Origin: a virus
Length of the DNA: 25,215 nt
Reading direction: 5' to 3' (one strand)
Virus record (IMG/VR): IMGVR_UViG_3300005613_000386
Span: 1-25,215 of that record
Shown: in pieces, positions 3,333-23,666 of the stretch
Layout: each line of letters opens with the position of its first letter
Numbering within the stretch: position 1 is the first letter of the stretch
Position numbers and translations under genes: made by a program
The notes under the pieces: model-generated
What the model was told of the DNA's origin: nothing
What the model saw: only the letters and a program-made list of their open reading frames with translations
Database searches by the model: none

Positions 3333-4394
3333 ATGGCTGCAACAGATAGCTTTTTGACCACTTCCGCGCTTACAGACCTAACATTATGGGCGCGTGACCA
3401 AGCCGACATCCTAAGGAAGGGCTTTATCGAAAGTCCAACATTAGACCAGAGCTGTAAAGTAATTTACGGTCTTGACGCGGACACTATTTACACTAACGTA
3501 AATCTACCTTACGAGTTCTTGGGTTCTGCTCCTGGCTGTGATAGCGACGGTACTGGAACTAGCATTGCAAGCTCACAAGTTAAGTTTGAGCCAACGCCAG
3601 TAGGCTTTACTAACTGGTTATGTACTTCGGAGCTTAAAGGCATCTTTAAAGCTGCAAGGGGTAAAGGCAACGAAACTTTGAACGCTCAAGAGATGGGCTT
3701 GTTTGACTACCTTATGGCGTTGTATCAAGAGCGTTTCCCTGCCGAACTATTGCGCATGGCATGGATGAGCGATAGCGAAGCGGCTCACTATAACGACAGC
3801 ACACCTGGTTACTTTACCAACGGTCTTGACCTGAACTTATACAACAAGTTTGACGGCTTTTGGAAGCTTATTTATACCGATACCGTAACCGATGGTAACA
3901 CGGGCAGGCGAGTAGAGATAGCCCAAAACACTACAACGGCTCAAAGCATAACAACTACCGAAACATACAATTACATGGTAGATATGTACAATGCTATGTC
4001 TTTGGAGATGTTGCAAGACCCTAACTTGCAGTTGAAGGTTACGCAAAGCCTTTTCAATAAGTTCTCGTTCTACTTGACCGAAAAAGGTGTTGACCAGTCT
4101 TTCGAGTACTTGCAAATGGGCACTAACGGGCTTATGTTCCACGGTATACCTGTTATTGCAGTTCCAGAATGGGATCGTTCAATCAAGTCAGCAATGAATG
4201 ACAGTGGTACTTATTACCAGCCGTTCCGTATGTTGCTTGCCAACAAAGATAACTTTGGCTTTGCATTCCGTGAAGAGGCTACCGACTTGCAGATCGATAT
4301 GGAATACATCTCGGTTAAGCGTTCAACACGTATTGACACTTACGCTGAAGTTGATGCAAAGATCCTTATTAAAGATTACGTAGCAGCATTTTAA
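3333..4394 (+). CDS. major capsid protein
   Basis: This 353-residue protein directly follows the maturation protease/scaffold gene, the usual place of the major capsid gene. It is acidic, of normal capsid length and rich in mixed alpha/beta sequence. The C-terminal part has the feel of an HK97-type A-domain: a GLMFHGIPVIAVPEWD strand-turn near residues 267-282, a LLANKDNFGFAFREE strand, then YISVKRSTRIDTYAEVDAKI before the end. These resemble the 'local substrate, then strand' ending of other Bacteroidota phage capsid proteins. The N-terminus has no obvious long delta domain, consistent with scaffold being supplied by the upstream gene. The assignment rests mainly on context plus this C-terminal pattern; the fold itself was not tested. 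Confidence 0.8.
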   Translation: MAATDSFLTTSALTDLTLWARDQADILRKGFIESPTLDQSCKVIYGLDADTIYTNVNLPYEFLGSAPGCDSDGTGTSIASSQVKFEPTPVGFTNWLCTSELKGIFKAARGKGNETLNAQEMGLFDYLMALYQERFPAELLRMAWMSDSEAAHYNDSTPGYFTNGLDLNLYNKFDGFWKLIYTDTVTDGNTGRRVEIAQNTTTAQSITTTETYNYMVDMYNAMSLEMLQDPNLQLKVTQSLFNKFSFYLTEKGVDQSFEYLQMGTNGLMFHGIPVIAVPEWDRSIKSAMNDSGTYYQPFRMLLANKDNFGFAFREEATDLQIDMEYISVKRSTRIDTYAEVDAKILIKDYVAAF

Positions 4395-4406
4395 AAACTA
4401 ACGACT

Positions 4407-5006
4407 ATGGCAGATTGCACAAGCCTAACGGCTAACATATTGAAGGATTGCGATAATCCGATAGTAAACGGTATAGATGCTGACGTATATTTGGCTAACT
4501 ATACCGACTGGGACAATGCTACCAAAACATTGGATGCAACAGACGGCTTTATAACCGACTTTACACTTCCATCGGGCGCAACCCTGTATAAAGTTGAAAG
4601 TGATGAGAACGCGGTGCAGGCACTTACGGAGTTTATTCGTAGTGCCACATCTAGCAACTTCGCACATCAAGTAGCGGTGAACGTACCGAAAGATACACAG
4701 GGTGCGCGTAACGAAGTTAGCAAGTTGCTAAAGTCCCGCGTTGTGGCTATTATACGTCAAAACTACGCGGGTGGTGATAACACTGGTAAGTTCAAAGTAT
4801 TTGGATCAAAGACTGGACTACGTGGCGTAGCTCAAGTTGTACAGGATAGCTCAAATACGGACGTAAACGGTGCTTACACTATCGCTTTGCGAACTGATGA
4901 CGGTAATGGCATCTACGAACCTGAGCCACCTGTAGGCTTGCTAGTAACAAGTATAGCAGATACAGCGGCTAAATTAGAAAGTTTATTGAGCGCTACAGAC
5001 GTGTAA
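4407..5006 (+). CDS. phage structural protein of unknown type (199 aa)
   Basis: I do not recognise a family with confidence. The protein starts MADCTSL, and an early segment (VYLANYTDWDNATKTLD) is followed by beta-strand-rich sequence, a polar helix at about 75-112, and a Gly-rich FKVFGSKTGLRGVAQ section before a PEPPVG turn. It looks like a soluble structural protein. Its place between major capsid and portal suggests a head decoration or completion protein, or possibly a tail-tube-like protein, since 200-residue tube proteins have a similar strand-helix-strand look. It begins 12 bases after the capsid stop with an A-rich leader and runs in the same operon. Confidence 0.65.
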   Translation: MADCTSLTANILKDCDNPIVNGIDADVYLANYTDWDNATKTLDATDGFITDFTLPSGATLYKVESDENAVQALTEFIRSATSSNFAHQVAVNVPKDTQGARNEVSKLLKSRVVAIIRQNYAGGDNTGKFKVFGSKTGLRGVAQVVQDSSNTDVNGAYTIALRTDDGNGIYEPEPPVGLLVTSIADTAAKLESLLSATDV

Positions 5007-6838: not shown

Positions 6839-7346
6839 TCAACAGGACATTGAGAATATACGCCCGATAGCGGAAAACATACCCGCTAACATGGTGGATT
6901 TTGCCATAACGGAAGCCCAAACGGTGGACTTTGCGCAATACATGGGGTGTGATAACTCATTCATGTACTATCTGAGCGAAAACCAAAGCGTTGCTAGGGT
7001 GCAAAAGTTGTTGAATGGTGGCACTTACGTAGTTGACGGCAAAACAAGGTACTTTACAGGGCTAATAACGGCACTTAGTTACTTTGCTTACGCTCGCATA
7101 CTAACTACTGCTAACGTTCGGCTAACGGCTGCTGGTGTTGTCAGCAAAAATAAAGACCAGTCCACGACCTTGGGCGGTTCGGAGATAACACAGGCAGCAA
7201 GCCAAGCCATTGGCGTTGGTAAAGAATACTTGAAACAGATAAAGGATTATCTTTGTAACGAAGATGACGTGTGGAACGACCTTGATTTAGGGTTAAACAC
7301 AACAGTAACGGGGCGCGTGGTGGCTAAAACATTAAGAAAAGTATAA
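6822..7346 (+). CDS. head-tail connector, DUF6712-like
   Basis: The 174-residue, largely helical protein lies immediately after the portal, the usual place for the gp6-like head-tail connector (head completion) protein. The middle segment ITALSYFAYARILTTANVRL, followed by a Thr-rich GVVSKNKDQSTT turn and a long helix (ASQAIGVGKEYLKQIKDYL), matches my memory of DUF6712 proteins in Bacteroidota phages, which occupy this slot. Its job would be to bind the portal ring and create the interface for the tail. The ATG at 6822 overlaps the portal end by 17 bases, and the stop overlaps the next ATG in TAATG. Confidence 0.75.
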   Translation: MKALISQQDIENIRPIAENIPANMVDFAITEAQTVDFAQYMGCDNSFMYYLSENQSVARVQKLLNGGTYVVDGKTRYFTGLITALSYFAYARILTTANVRLTAAGVVSKNKDQSTTLGGSEITQAASQAIGVGKEYLKQIKDYLCNEDDVWNDLDLGLNTTVTGRVVAKTLRKV

Positions 7347-7834
7347 TGGCAGCTAATTTAAAAGACCTACTATTAAGAGTAGCTACAAAGGTAGGCTACA
7401 CTACCAAAGGCTCAGACCTAAGCGGGACGGAAGTTGACGATAACTTTCTGTTGCATAATGAATTTTTGAGTGAAATGCTAGCATCGCTGAACGTTCAAAG
7501 TTATGACGGTGCGAAAGAATACGTAACTGGTGCTATTGTGAAGTACGATAGCGATCTGTGGAAGATGATCAATGTAAGCCCACAGACGGGCGTTGAACCT
7601 GGGACTAATGCTTTGGTGTGGTCAATTACATCAGTAGGTCAGCTAATAGGTAACCAAGCCGAACAGAAGTACGTAACAAGCCTTGTGATAAAGAAGGACG
7701 GCAATACAGACCTATCGAACCCTGAAGAGGGGGACGGTCTTATTAAGATAAAAGCAGACGGCACATTTGTAATTATCCAACATGACGGTACATTATTTAA
7801 CGACGATAAAGAATTTTTAAGCGCGACAGTATGA
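7346..7834 (+). CDS. tail or fibre-associated protein with carbohydrate-binding-like segment
   Basis: This 162-residue protein has a helical N-terminus (1-50) and a short segment at 53-92 reading YDGAKEYVTGAIVKYDSDLW with a following TGVEPGTNALVW. Its Y-x-x-G-x-x-V-x-Y...W pattern resembles small carbohydrate-binding modules of the chitinase type that are common in phage tail and fibre proteins. The C-terminus is strand-rich, with a repeated DG turn (KADGTFVIIQHDGTLF). I read it as a fibre-joining or adhesin component, but no exact family was recognised. It is linked to the next gene by an ATGA overlap. Confidence 0.6.
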   Translation: MAANLKDLLLRVATKVGYTTKGSDLSGTEVDDNFLLHNEFLSEMLASLNVQSYDGAKEYVTGAIVKYDSDLWKMINVSPQTGVEPGTNALVWSITSVGQLIGNQAEQKYVTSLVIKKDGNTDLSNPEEGDGLIKIKADGTFVIIQHDGTLFNDDKEFLSATV

Positions 7835-16697: not shown

Positions 16698-16702
16698 AAC
16701 GC

Positions 16703-16746
16703 GGGGCGGCGGTTATTGGCCTTTAGGTTAATTGTGCAGCCGCCCC
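16703..16746 (+). other. GC-rich inverted repeat in an intergenic gap
   Basis: GGGGCGGC (16703-16710) and GCCGCCCC (16739-16746) pair perfectly around a 28-base AT-rich loop. It lies 5 bases after one stop and 15 before the next ATG, and it is followed by CCTTAAATT rather than a run of T. It is far more GC-rich than its surroundings, so an RNA processing signal, attenuator or weak terminator is possible. Confidence 0.55.
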
Positions 16747-16761
16747 CCTTAAATTAAAGCC

Positions 16762-17468: not shown

Positions 17469-17818
17469 TGAAAAAGCAAACTAAGGGGTTAGCCTTCAAA
17501 GGTATCAACCAATTCATGCAAGATAAGAATGATATGCTCACGCTCTGTTTTGACCGAAAAGCTATATTTGAATTTCAGGCATTAAACATTGAAGACTGCT
17601 TTGTCATTTACCATTGCCAACAATACGAAGGCTATACAATTGAGGTAGTTGGCTATTTTGGTGTAATAAATGAGATCGAAGAAAAAGAAATGCACATTGA
17701 ACGTCTGCTTACGTTTGACGACTTATTCGACATCGGCTTTAGCGTATGTTCAATAACTATTTATTGTCAAGATGACGGAACTAACTTAAATGTTTACAGC
17801 AAAAAAATTGCATTTTAA
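17468..17818 (+). CDS. hypothetical protein (116 aa)
   Basis: I do not recognise this protein. It is strand-rich and acidic after a basic start: KGINQFMQDKN, then FVIYHCQQYEGYTIEVVGYF, a Glu/Lys-rich turn, and FSVCSITIYCQDDG. Four Cys lack a metal-site spacing. It ends 12 bases before the -7 box of the next promoter, whose -33 element lies inside its 3' end. Confidence 0.5.
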   Translation: MKKQTKGLAFKGINQFMQDKNDMLTLCFDRKAIFEFQALNIEDCFVIYHCQQYEGYTIEVVGYFGVINEIEEKEMHIERLLTFDDLFDIGFSVCSITIYCQDDGTNLNVYSKKIAF

Positions 17819-17838
17819 AAGATAGAGTGTTATCTTAG
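17807..17838 (+). promoter_or_regulatory. promoter of the first kissing-loop RNA unit
   Basis: ATTG (17807-17810, with the core TTG) and TATCTTAG (17831-17838) are separated by 20 bases, matching the spacing and TTAG ending of the other promoters. Transcription would start near 17844, giving a leader of roughly 120 bases before the ATG at 17967. Confidence 0.62.
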
Positions 17839-17843
17839 CGGTA

Positions 17844-17954
17844 GAAAATAACGCGGGTAAGCTGACAGGCAAAACAGTTACTTGTGTACTACGATAAAAT
17901 TTTACACCCATACTTGGTTGCGTTAGCCTGAACGTTTCTGAGTATGGGTTTTTT
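17844..17954 (+). ncRNA. candidate structured leader/small RNA 1 (kissing loops)
   Basis: From the promoter to the T-run this stretch is strongly structured. Hairpin 1: GTAA+CTG (17857-17864, one bulged G) pairs with CAGTTAC (17875-17881), leaving a loop that contains CAGGC (17866-17870). A smaller GTGTA/TACAC stem follows (17884-17907). The terminator stem CCCATACT (17907-17914) pairs with AGTATGGG (17941-17948), and inside it CGTT/AACG (17921-17924, 17931-17934) presents the hexaloop AGCCTG, whose GCCTG is complementary to CAGGC in loop 1. GCCTGAA (17926-17932) is also complementary to TTCAGGC (17957-17963), just before the ATG. It may be a leader with two alternative contacts or a separate small RNA. 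No known Rfam family was recognised by eye. Confidence 0.55.
17907..17954 (+). terminator. intrinsic terminator 12 bases before the replisome-organiser gene
   Basis: CCCATACT/AGTATGGG is a perfect 8-bp stem, extendable with G-U pairs, followed by TTTTTT (17949-17954). It lies only 12 bases before the ATG at 17967, so it can act as an attenuator for that gene. Confidence 0.75.
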
Positions 17955-17966
17955 AATTCAGGCAAC

Positions 17967-18689
17967 ATGGCAAAAGACCCAGCATTTTTATTTTACTCTC
18001 AAGACTGGCTTGTAGGCACTATGGATTTAACCTTTGAAGAGAAAGGACAGTACATACACCTATTGGCAAGCATGCATCAAAAGGGTAGGCTTAACGATAA
18101 AACCATTAGCTTTTTGGTAGGTTCTGTTTCGGATAACCTAAAGTCAAAATTCAAAGTAGATAATCAAGGACTTTGGTATAACGAAAGGCTAGAGTTTGAA
18201 GCATCTAAAAGGGCTAATTTTACAGAGAGTAGACGAGCCAACGGCTCTAAAGGTGGTAGACCTAAAAAGGATAAAGCACTAGCTAAAGCTAAACAAAACC
18301 ATAAGGATAACCATATGCATAACCATATGGGAAATGAAAATGAAGATGTAAATGAAGTTGATAATATTAAAATAAGTGTAGACAAATTTGAAATTCCTGA
18401 ATACCTAAACACACCCGATTTTATCCGAGGGGTAAGCATGTGGGCTGAGGCTAACTTGCAAAAGAACGATCGACCACTAGCTGACCTAGAGATACAAGCT
18501 GCCATAAAAGCTATCGCTAAGTACGCTAAAGGGGACATTAAGAGGGCTTACGCAATGATCGCAAGTAACCACGAAGCTGTGTATCGAAAGATGTACGAGC
18601 CAAAGACAGCACCAACACCTACAAGCATACCACATAAGCCACAACAGGAAACAATTAAGCTATCACAACCAAAACAGAGAGCACAATGA
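17967..18689 (+). CDS. DUF1376-like replisome organiser / replication initiation protein
   Basis: The N-terminal 90 residues start KDPAFLFYSQDWLVGTMDLT and continue as a winged-helix-like region (EEKGQYIHLLASMHQKGRLN), the DUF1376-like signature. Then comes a basic RRANGSKGGRPKK segment at about 88-101, and after a His/Asn-rich linker (HKDNHMHNHMGNEN, which contains short DNA repeats CATATG/ATAACCATATG) a C-terminal helical domain (about 145-210) follows. This is the layout of phage replisome organisers that recruit the helicase to the origin. It directly precedes the DnaB-type helicase with an ATGA overlap, which supports that job. The upstream terminator and structured leader may control its level. 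An origin could lie within the gene's linker repeats, but this is speculative. Confidence 0.75.
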   Translation: MAKDPAFLFYSQDWLVGTMDLTFEEKGQYIHLLASMHQKGRLNDKTISFLVGSVSDNLKSKFKVDNQGLWYNERLEFEASKRANFTESRRANGSKGGRPKKDKALAKAKQNHKDNHMHNHMGNENEDVNEVDNIKISVDKFEIPEYLNTPDFIRGVSMWAEANLQKNDRPLADLEIQAAIKAIAKYAKGDIKRAYAMIASNHEAVYRKMYEPKTAPTPTSIPHKPQQETIKLSQPKQRAQ

Positions 18690-20071
18690 AGTTACCACCG
18701 CAGAATTTAGAAATGGAGCAAGCCGTGTTAGGTGCTATCATGTTAGAGCGTGGAGCGTTTCACATGGCTAACGGTATACTAACGGCTAATGATTTCTACA
18801 CGGATCAAAATAAAGCCATTTACGGAGCTTTTTGTTCGTTGCAAGCAAAAGGGTCGCCAATTGATTTAATGACCGTTACGGTCGAGCTAAAGGCTTTAGG
18901 TAGGCTTTCTATTGCTGGTGGTGTTACATATCTTTCAGAATTGACAGAACGCGTTGCATCAGGAGCTAATGTCGAGTACCATGCAAAGATTGTAAAGCAA
19001 GAGGCTATAAAGCGGGCTTTGATAACCTTATGCACCGACATAGCTCAACAGACTTATAATGGAGGCGATGCGTTTGAATTGATCGATAAGGTTACTGGTG
19101 GGGTTATTGACATCAACATGGGCATTCAGAGCCAAACGAAAGTAACGCTAAAGTCCGCTGTTGACGAAGAGGCTAAAGTAATAGTAAATCTTTCTCAAAA
19201 CCCTGAAGTTGTGCAAGGCATACCAACAGGCTTTAAAGACCTTAACAAAGAGATCGGGGGCTGGCAAAGGGGTAATCACTACGTAATAGCAGGCCGCCCG
19301 GGTATGGGTAAATCTGTACTTGTTACACAGTTAGCATTGACAGCGATAGAGAATGGAGCGCGTGTTCTGTTCAATTCATTAGAAATGCCAGCCGATCAAA
19401 TAGCAAGGCGTGTTATTAGTTACCGTACGCAGATTAATAATAACAAGTTCAAAGATCCAAAGAAGTTAACTACAAGCGATTTAAAAAGCATTACAAGCCT
19501 TGTAGAGAGCGATAACTTGATTATTGACGACACGGCTTCAATGACCGTTGAAAGGTTGCATAGCAGCGCTAAAGCATTGCACATGGAAAAGCCTTTGGAT
19601 ATGGTCATTGTTGACTATTTACAGCTAATGAGTAGCACCGAAAAAGGCAACAGAGAACAACAGGTTTCTGCTATGTCGAGAGGGTTAAAGAACCTAGCTA
19701 AGGATTTAAATATACCAGTTATTGACCTATCACAATTAAGCAGGTCTGTTGAAACACGGGGCGGAGATAAGCGCCCTATATTATCAGACCTTCGTGAAAG
19801 TGGTGGTATAGAGCAAGACGCGGACGCGGTAATATTTATCTATCGACCTGAGTACTATGACATACCTGAATACTCAGATGGGCAAAGTACTAAAGGTGTG
19901 TGTGAGTTGATCATAGCTAAAAATAGGCACGGGGCATTAGATACTGTTAAAGTCAAGTTTGATGGTGCAACGAGTACTATGTGCGATTTTGAGGACACTT
20001 TTGAAGATACATTTGAGCAGCCTGTAAGCTTTAGAGCTGAACAGCCAACTGAAGACGATATACCATTTTAA
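18686..20071 (+). CDS. dnaB: replicative DNA helicase, DnaB type
   Basis: The 461 residues show the full DnaB layout: an N-terminal helical domain (MEQAVLGAIMLERGAF at 10-25, DFYTDQNKAIYGAF at 36-49), a linker, and a RecA-like domain from about 175. Walker A is GRPGMGKS at 203-210. FNSLEMPADQIARR follows at 229-242, Walker B is MVIVDYLQLM at 306-315 with Asp310, and an ENR-type arginine region is at IAKNRHGALDTVKV (410-423). It unwinds DNA at the fork as a hexamer. The end is unusual: after a Phe/Asp/Glu-rich stretch, the last residues are TEDDIPF, like the acidic tip of single-strand binding proteins and nearly the same as EDDLPF at the end of the next gene's protein. It is coupled to the replisome organiser by ATGA. 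Confidence 0.95.
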   Translation: MKLPPQNLEMEQAVLGAIMLERGAFHMANGILTANDFYTDQNKAIYGAFCSLQAKGSPIDLMTVTVELKALGRLSIAGGVTYLSELTERVASGANVEYHAKIVKQEAIKRALITLCTDIAQQTYNGGDAFELIDKVTGGVIDINMGIQSQTKVTLKSAVDEEAKVIVNLSQNPEVVQGIPTGFKDLNKEIGGWQRGNHYVIAGRPGMGKSVLVTQLALTAIENGARVLFNSLEMPADQIARRVISYRTQINNNKFKDPKKLTTSDLKSITSLVESDNLIIDDTASMTVERLHSSAKALHMEKPLDMVIVDYLQLMSSTEKGNREQQVSAMSRGLKNLAKDLNIPVIDLSQLSRSVETRGGDKRPILSDLRESGGIEQDADAVIFIYRPEYYDIPEYSDGQSTKGVCELIIAKNRHGALDTVKVKFDGATSTMCDFEDTFEDTFEQPVSFRAEQPTEDDIPF

Positions 20072-22000: not shown

Positions 22001-22008
22001 TATATTTG
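22001..22008 (+). promoter_or_regulatory. -7 promoter box of the second kissing-loop RNA unit
   Basis: TATATTTG is an exact TAnnTTTG match, but without a TTTG at the usual 20-base distance. A weaker alternative, TACTTTAC at 22010-22017, has a TTTG 21 bases upstream (21985-21988). Either would start the transcript between about 22013 and 22022. Confidence 0.55.
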
Positions 22009-22013
22009 TTACT

Positions 22014-22100
22014 TTACGTAACGCTGTGAGGGGCGTATCTGAAAATATCGAAAGCCTAGCCCTGATAGATCCTCACATCTTGACGGGTCTAGGCTTTTTT
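22014..22100 (+). ncRNA. candidate structured leader/small RNA 2 (kissing loops)
   Basis: A short hairpin ACGC (22021-22024) / GCGT (22033-22036) carries the loop TGTGAGGG. The terminator hairpin pairs AAAGCCTAGCCC (22051-22062) with GGG, one bulged T, then CTAGGCTTT (22085-22097). At its tip AGAT/ATCT (22067-22070, 22077-22080) holds the hexaloop CCTCAC, perfectly complementary to GTGAGG (22026-22031) in the first loop. The transcript would be about 80-90 nt, ending in TTTTTT, and the next ATG lies 13 bases later. The design copies that of the unit at 17844 with different sequences. It may be an attenuator for the gene at 22114 or an independent RNA. Confidence 0.6.
22051..22100 (+). terminator. 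strong intrinsic terminator 13 bases before an ORF
   Basis: A 9-bp perfect stem (AAAGCCTAG/CTAGGCTTT), extended by three G-C pairs past a one-base bulge, is followed by TTTTTT (22095-22100). It ends the transcript from the promoter near 22001 and could also end the phosphoesterase transcript. Confidence 0.8.
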
Positions 22101-22113
22101 AAATTGACACACA

Positions 22114-22374
22114 ATGAACGCACACTACACAACTTTTGAAGGTAAAAAACAGTTTGATGTATTGAGAGAGAAAGCAAACCTGTTAGGGAGGGTTGTTAAT
22201 TTTTGGCCAAGGGATAATTATTTTGGGTATAACATCAATATACAAACGTTTATCCCTTATGAATTTTTAGAAGGTATGGTTATGTCTGCATACTACCAAG
22301 AAGCCACCTACCTACCTTATAACGAGTACCTAGACTATCTAGATAGGTGCATAAAAGACAAAGACAATGGATAA
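22114..22374 (+). CDS. hypothetical protein (86 aa) downstream of RNA unit 2
   Basis: I do not recognise this protein. It is rich in Tyr, Phe and Asn, with a basic first third (GKKQFDVLREKANLLGRVVN) and an acidic end (CIKDKDNG); no motif was seen. It starts 13 bases after the terminator T-run, so it would be expressed only on read-through or from internal initiation. The stop overlaps the next gene by 8 bases. Confidence 0.5.
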   Translation: MNAHYTTFEGKKQFDVLREKANLLGRVVNFWPRDNYFGYNINIQTFIPYEFLEGMVMSAYYQEATYLPYNEYLDYLDRCIKDKDNG

Positions 22375-23320: not shown

Positions 23321-23454
23321 GGACAGGTGGCGAAATTGGTAGACGCATACAGGTTGAAACTTTAATCGGGTCGTAGGCTTTTGCCTTTGCCTTCCCGAAG
23401 AGCCTGCAAAGGTGGGTCTTTAGTTTCTTGCAGGTTCGAGTCCTGCCCTGTCCA
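23321..23454 (+). tRNA. anomalous type II tRNA (Leu-like body, oversized variable region)
   Basis: The acceptor (GGACAGG/CCTGTCC, 7 bp), D arm (GCG/CGC, loop AAATTGGTAGA, as in tRNA-Leu) and T arm (GCAGG/CCTGC, loop TTCGAGT) are perfect, ending in A at 23454. Between 23348 and 23429, however, lie 82 bases instead of the 30-40 usual for a tRNA-Leu. The best anticodon arm is TACAG/CTTTA around GTTGAAA, with one C-T mismatch, giving anticodon TGA; this conflicts with a Leu body. The rest (about 65 bases) holds a TCGGG/CCCGA stem with AGGC-TTTT-GCCT inside. It may be an extreme variable arm or contain an unremoved insertion. The identity is therefore open. It is the first gene after the promoter at 23279. 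Confidence 0.55.
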
Positions 23455-23556: not shown

Positions 23557-23630
23557 GGAAGTGTAGCTCAGATGGATAGAGCGGCGTAGTGTTAATACCG
23601 CAGACGGGGGTTCGAAGCCCCCCACTTCCA
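23557..23630 (+). tRNA. tRNA-Asn (GTT)
   Basis: A 74-base cloverleaf: acceptor GGAAGTG/CACTTCC (7 bp), D arm GCTC/GAGC with loop AGATGGATA, T arm GGGGG/CCCCC with loop TTCGAAG, and discriminator A. The anticodon loop GTGTTAA carries GTT (23591-23593). Its stem is GCGTA/TACCGC, which pairs only with one bulged C, an unusual defect. It lies in one transcript with the anomalous tRNA. It may supplement host Asn decoding. Confidence 0.85.
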
Positions 23631-23666
23631 CAAAATTTTTAAAAACCATTAACACAACACACAATC

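Follow-up and report, generated by a model that had tools for sequence, protein, structure and literature searches.

The stretch of DNA analysed here (the window) is a 25,215-base IMG/VR virus record, a phage fragment of about 25 kb, in which a structured region lies directly 5' to the start codon of a replication-type gene. The question raised by this locus is whether that region acts as a switch on the gene behind it. A sequence-only reading had proposed that the loop of a terminator hairpin could pair either with the loop of an upstream hairpin or with the translation start of the gene, and that the choice would set the dose of a replication protein. The motifs behind this proposal were present where it had placed them (Table 1): CAGGC in loop 1, GCCTG at 17926-17930, CAGGCAA at 17959-17965, and GCCTGAA complementary to the TTCAGGC that precedes the ATG. 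The minimum-energy fold of the leader (-35 kcal/mol, z -3.95, with 0 of 200 shuffles as good) also agreed with it, exposing CAGGC in a loop and AGCCTG as a 6-nt loop at the terminator tip, and the T-run ended 12 bases upstream of the ATG. Bacteroidota promoters follow the consensus TTTG / TAnnTTTG (PMC6847099), and a promoter of this type predicted a transcript start at about 17843-17844, matching the earlier guess of 17844. Elsewhere in the window, a strong intergenic hairpin (GGGGCGGC...GCCGCCCC, 16702-16747) was seen without a T-run or obvious promoter. The Rfam tRNA model matched 134 bases at 23321-23454 with 40 bits, far above tRNA length; the sole ARAGORN call was a tRNA-Asn at 23557-23631, and the match is possibly a tRNA with an insertion or intron.

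Table 1. Positions of the two leaders of the window, their pairing sites and the genes behind them.
Feature	Position	Strand	Detail
Bacteroidota-type promoter, leader 1	17808..17838	+	TTG 17808-17810, 20-nt spacer, TATCTTAG 17831-17838
TAACGC	17849..17854	+	extra 6-nt complement of GCGTTA at the terminator apex (17920-17925), from the A/A' scan
Hairpin 1, leader 1	17851..17887	+	loop 17865-17874 (10 nt) exposes site A, CAGGC, 17866-17870
Candidate GTG leader ORF (weak)	17884..17931	+	15 codons; crosses the terminator 5' arm; TGA stop inside A'
Intrinsic-terminator hairpin, leader 1	17906..17949	+	outer stem 12 bp, inner stem 5 bp; T-run 17949-17954
Site A', GCCTGAA	17926..17932	+	terminator tip; pairs A over 5 bp and C over 7 bp
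Site C, TTCAGGC	17957..17963	+	adjoins start codon; repeat of A, complement of A'
Primosomal/replication-initiation type gene	17967..18689	+	240 aa; phrog_9327 (primosomal protein), E 3.4e-10
DnaB helicase gene	18686-20071		next after the primosomal-type gene
Leader 2 promoter, -7 element	22001..22008	+	TATATTTG; promoter scan
Leader 2	22013..22113	+	hairpin 22021-22036, terminator about 22051-22098, T-run, then ATG 22114
Leader 2 site A	22025-22032	+	TGTGAGGG; in hairpin 22021-22036
Leader 2 site A'	22070-22077	+	TCCTCACA; in terminator loop
First gene after leader 2	22114..22374	+	86 aa; start of second early operon

Judged from the window by itself, the pairing of A with A' over 5 bp was within chance (p = 0.14 with shuffled loops), and the match between A' and the pre-ATG site C was beyond it (0 of 500 shuffled loops paired as well). 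The A/A' scan itself picked TAACGC/GCGTTA as the pair of the window; TAACGC was not kept in the nearest relative, L001. The gene behind the L001 leader is 90% identical in amino acids to that of the window, and the leader itself is much altered. Compared to the window, all three sites of L001 had changed together, to CCGGC at A, GCCGG at A' and CCGGC before the ATG. Its hairpin-1 loop reads CCGGCA, its terminator loop TGCCGG (A' = TTGCCGGA), and its pre-ATG site, TCCGGCAA, pairs A' over 8 bp, beyond shuffles. This concerted change, together with the recurrence of A:A' complementarity in many unrelated leaders, was the decisive evidence against chance. In the L001 contig, two DNA methyltransferase-like genes with nearly identical C-terminal halves (4135-4848 and 6984-7748) flank the primosomal and DnaB genes.

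The pairing was then traced through one leader family represented by 26 distinct sequences (alignment A7). Its 7-bp A:A' kissing helix reached 98.9% pairing. In 5 of the 7 pairs both partners had changed, and as many as three pair types occurred; the stems of hairpin 1 and of the terminator covaried too. When the partners were slid by 1-3 columns as a control, whole-structure pairing fell to 33-43%. A single mismatch was found in 2 of 44 distinct cores (L131 and L181), and in a closely related group the A:A' helix varied more than the stems. Part of this covariation set had been fetched with the conserved leader-ORF motif as bait, a choice that constrains the motif itself and the 3' arm of hairpin 1 but leaves the kissing loops free. 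Covariation of A and A' means that the two pair as RNA in vivo, be it inside a single molecule, from one molecule to another or in both ways, and A:A' pairing is almost certainly a selected RNA feature. In L034-type leaders, the 16-nt linker between the hairpins (TGTTTAGTGGTTAAAT) stayed constant while loops and stems varied, also in loci not fetched by it as bait; this constancy, seen within one family only, may reflect the leader peptide MCLVVK or a binding site. The loops could also differ between otherwise matching phages. The downstream genes of L213 and L214 are identical (100%) and their loop types are different, with A and A' still matched, and about 40% of pairs with gene identity of at least 95% differed in loop type, again with A and A' matched. 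Such swapping is consistent with a specificity role, and it could also come from plain phage recombination.

A profile search with the primosomal-type gene returned 428 relatives in viral contigs, of which 80 were kept, and another 11 in bacterial genomes. L004 was rejected as a chance match to the bait sequence. Upstream of such genes, about 15 unrelated leader families followed a common plan: a 5' site A near the transcript start, in many cases within a hairpin loop; a terminator whose loop, A', complements A; a T-run; and the start codon of the gene at most about 30 nt from the terminator. The A/A' pairs were GAAACCGCAAA/TTTGCGGTTTC in L007, ACCAAACAGCGA/TCGCTGTTTGGT in L008, GCGACCAAGC/GCTTGGTCGC in L015 and GTAATCAACGAC/GTCGTTGGTTAC in L093, and L102 and L103 carried the plan as well. 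The loops therefore stayed complementary while their letters changed, in line with the sequence-only reading. When 42 non-redundant upstream regions were scanned for A, A' and terminator against dinucleotide shuffles, p was at most 0.02 at 13 leader-bearing loci; most operon-internal control loci (coding sequence up to the ATG) were at chance, the best giving p = 0.03. A leader's own terminator loop bound its own 5' region with a mean of -13.7 kcal/mol, compared to -7.7 for foreign loops. The distance between A and A' was 38-60 nt in 14 of 17 leaders, the A:A' helix reached 18-20 nt, and the promoter -7 element was present in 16 of 18 leaders. A promoter-anchored scan gave 57 matches against 5.2 expected, most of them from the bait family. 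L016, L018 and L020, whose outer stem surrounds a long, branched loop, escaped the automatic scan. Their A:A' pairs come from visual inspection and are not significant individually, and the L100 pair is also weak.

The distribution of the element had limits. No leader preceded the replication-type gene at L009, L011 and L012, and by inspection phages of Chlorobiaceae, Riemerella, Cellulophaga and Porphyromonas had no clear leader of this type at the replication gene. A search of 395 Bacteroidota genomes for the leader-ORF motif of the large family found no match. The Rfam scan returned no family match for the window leader, E values up to 10 giving only a chance snoRNA match in the preceding gene, nor for 14 relatives, and we found no description of the element in the open-access literature. 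The leaders had no conserved ligand-binding nucleotides as in a riboswitch, only promoter and architecture being shared between families by inspection. We conclude that these leaders are a real, so far unnamed class of control elements of Bacteroidota phages that is absent from Rfam.

A second leader built to this plan lies elsewhere in the window. Its loop pair differs from that of leader 1 within one phage, it is without site C, and a GTG lies inside its A site with an ORF open from 22026 through the terminator. A homologue at 9255-9375 of L001 stands before a different gene, with the pair TGTGAGGG/CCCTCACA (8 Watson-Crick pairs) and a compensated change in the terminator stem; at 640-821 of L010, another leader (GTGGTAG/CTACCAC) precedes an unrelated gene (MEYRKLPDTYRK...). 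As leader 2 of the window precedes another operon, the element is not tied to replication proteins. Similarly, a single leader family precedes two kinds of primosomal gene, two other replication-type genes, and HNH-like and GIY-YIG-like genes, the endonuclease names coming from a reading of the sequence. The supposed link to a replisome organiser thus held for leader 1, with its primosomal-type gene, but not for leader 2 or for the HNH and GIY-YIG cases; that leader 1 sets the dose of a replication protein is plausible. A replication origin or primer RNA was disfavoured, since nothing links leader 2 or the HNH and GIY-YIG cases to replication. At L104-L183, the HNH-like and GIY-YIG-like genes lie exactly behind the leader, where relatives have the start of the replication gene, as if homing genes favoured the leader/gene junction.

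A leader ORF starting at site A and reaching the terminator in most families had been overlooked by the sequence-only reading. Of 16 families, 10 had an ATG between A and 8 nt past it that opens an ORF reaching the terminator, where 2.8 were expected (P = 5e-5). For a few families in this count, site A was picked by eye, and the three leader types of one family entered as a single case. Allowing GTG and TTG starts weakened the signal (11 of 16 families, 6.2 expected, P = 0.013). Short leader ORFs stop just before the terminator in L008, L093 and the L034 type, and the leader ORFs of L015, L020, L100, L101 and L103 run through it. At four loci (L232, L233, L239 and L243), a small deletion removes the stop. 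The L001 leader ORF reads ATG ATA ACT TAT TGA and stops at the terminator; it differs from the candidate of window leader 1, whose start could only be GTG (17884) or TTG.

Taken as a whole, the leader RNA probably determines if the gene that follows is transcribed and translated. We favour a transcription attenuator whose terminator loop is antisense to the start of its own leader ORF, acting in cis and perhaps in trans, and give this entire mechanism, as read from the sequences, a probability of about 0.45. The structure is well established, and the direction of regulation is inferred. A ribosome on the leader ORF would disturb the terminator and let RNA polymerase pass. A' would act as the brake because it masks the leader-ORF start at A, in cis as soon as it is made, and the operon would close. 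Terminated RNA of about 85-110 nt is predicted to accumulate with promoter and template number and could mask A on new transcripts, giving negative feedback; such masking in trans would make related phages interfere with one another according to loop type. On read-through mRNA of the window and L001, the terminator loop could in addition cover site C and with it the main gene's translation start. Against this mechanism, the leader ORF of the window needs a GTG or TTG start, the ORF signal weakens once such starts are allowed, four loci lose the leader-ORF stop, and the different loop pairs in the two leaders of one phage are also expected of an element acting only in cis. That each terminated transcript represses later ones, with loop types serving as RNA compatibility groups that decide interference between co-infecting phages, is a bolder claim that we consider unlikely.

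A purely cis kinetic switch would need neither a trans RNA nor a translated leader ORF. A would capture nascent A' while the terminator still lacks its 3' arm and lower termination, or, in a variant, A:A' would stabilise the hairpin and raise it, with ribosomes or proteins on hairpin 1 setting the balance. The covariation of A with A' fits this reading, as do the two loop pairs of one phage and the 38-60 nt spacing, which leaves enough single strand for an intramolecular kiss. It leaves unexplained the ATG at A with an ORF reaching the terminator, and the greater variation of A:A' than of the stems in closely related leaders; taking both variants together, we find it somewhat unlikely. A translational switch, as first proposed for this locus, would have A' kiss A with the gene on or cover C with the gene off. 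Both pairings are possible in the window, and the C:A' helix (7 bp there, 8 bp in L001) is beyond shuffles and has changed together with A; L007 also repeats GTGAAAC at A and before the ATG, although A'-C pairing there is within chance, at most a 5-bp remnant. The pre-ATG site is, however, convincing only in the window and L001, and it is absent from other families and from leader 2. Because of this absence, the translational switch is at most an addition to the core in a small clade, and we consider it doubtful. The core conserved feature is the pairing of loop 1 with the terminator loop, not the pre-ATG site.

Alternatively, A, A' and C could be DNA binding-site copies for a phage repressor or initiator, the RNA complementarity being a by-product of their orientation. 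Three copies in orientation +,-,+ that change together between the window and L001 speak for such a DNA element. An operator or iterons were nevertheless disfavoured and are very improbable: the stems of hairpin 1 and terminator also covary, A and A', predicted to lie in hairpin loops, are different in each family, A:A' extends to 18-20 nt, and most families have no third copy. An ordinary terminator with chance complementarity, in line with the p of 0.14 in the window, is refuted by covariation, given the concerted changes in L001, the compensatory changes in 26 sequences and the recurrence in about 15 families, and its probability is negligible.

Several known systems resemble the attenuator that we favour. 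In leader-peptide and pT181-type attenuators, a short ORF or RNA pairing decides whether the leader terminator forms. The present leaders differ from them in having no regulatory codon runs, and in that A:A' crosses the terminator stem as a pseudoknot instead of forming a nested antiterminator. The c4 RNA of P1/P7 is a phage antisense RNA that comes from the same transcript as its target and acts on translation starts; it is processed from the ant operon transcript and is not a terminator loop, and the Rfam C4 model matched neither the window nor 14 relatives. The rep leader of ColIb-P9 encodes the repY leader peptide. Our leaders share with ColIb-P9 and I-complex rep leaders a leader ORF, here a candidate one, and a hairpin-1 loop that pairs with a downstream element near the replication gene as a pseudoknot and may likewise confer specificity (PMC10724649). 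The leader-ORF part of this likeness is carried by the ATG ORFs at A in 10 of 16 families, the window offering only the GTG/TTG candidate. In plasmid kissing loops, one base change alters incompatibility (PMC10724649). Unlike here, ColIb-P9 has its antisense RNAI transcribed from the opposite strand and regulates translation; in our leaders, the covarying complement is on the same strand and inside the terminator, and other operons are served as well.

In phage P4, a same-strand internal segment, the CI RNA, is complementary to sites upstream and downstream of it in the leader of the replication operon, and transcription terminates prematurely before the replication genes (PMC4825925). Similar to the seqA, seqB and seqC of P4 immunity, A' in the window and L001 complements A upstream and C downstream, whereas other families are without the downstream site, and a terminator-shaped hairpin with a T-run is predicted before the replication gene. 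Differences are that the P4 CI RNA is processed from the leader and confers lysogenic immunity, whereas the complement here is the loop of an intrinsic terminator, A lies at a leader-ORF start, the hosts are Bacteroidota, and Rfam gives no match. Lysogenic immunity was unsupported for most of our contigs, a tyrosine integrase being present in 1 of 20, many of them fragments. In its predicted mode of working, the element appears most like the P4 CI RNA and the ColIb-P9/I-complex leaders. Membership in either is not claimed, because of the missing Rfam match, the poor support for lysogeny in most contigs and the same-strand complement.

Detailed accounts of how RNA controls phage replication are, to our knowledge, limited to a few enterobacterial elements. 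The element described here is preserved by compensatory changes in many metagenomic and prophage-like sequences, and it is modular, one leader standing before several unrelated genes. As its loop pairs are exact, the hypothesis lends itself to direct testing. Action in trans, if real, would make it a same-strand system for copy-number control or interference among the phages of a major gut and water phylum.
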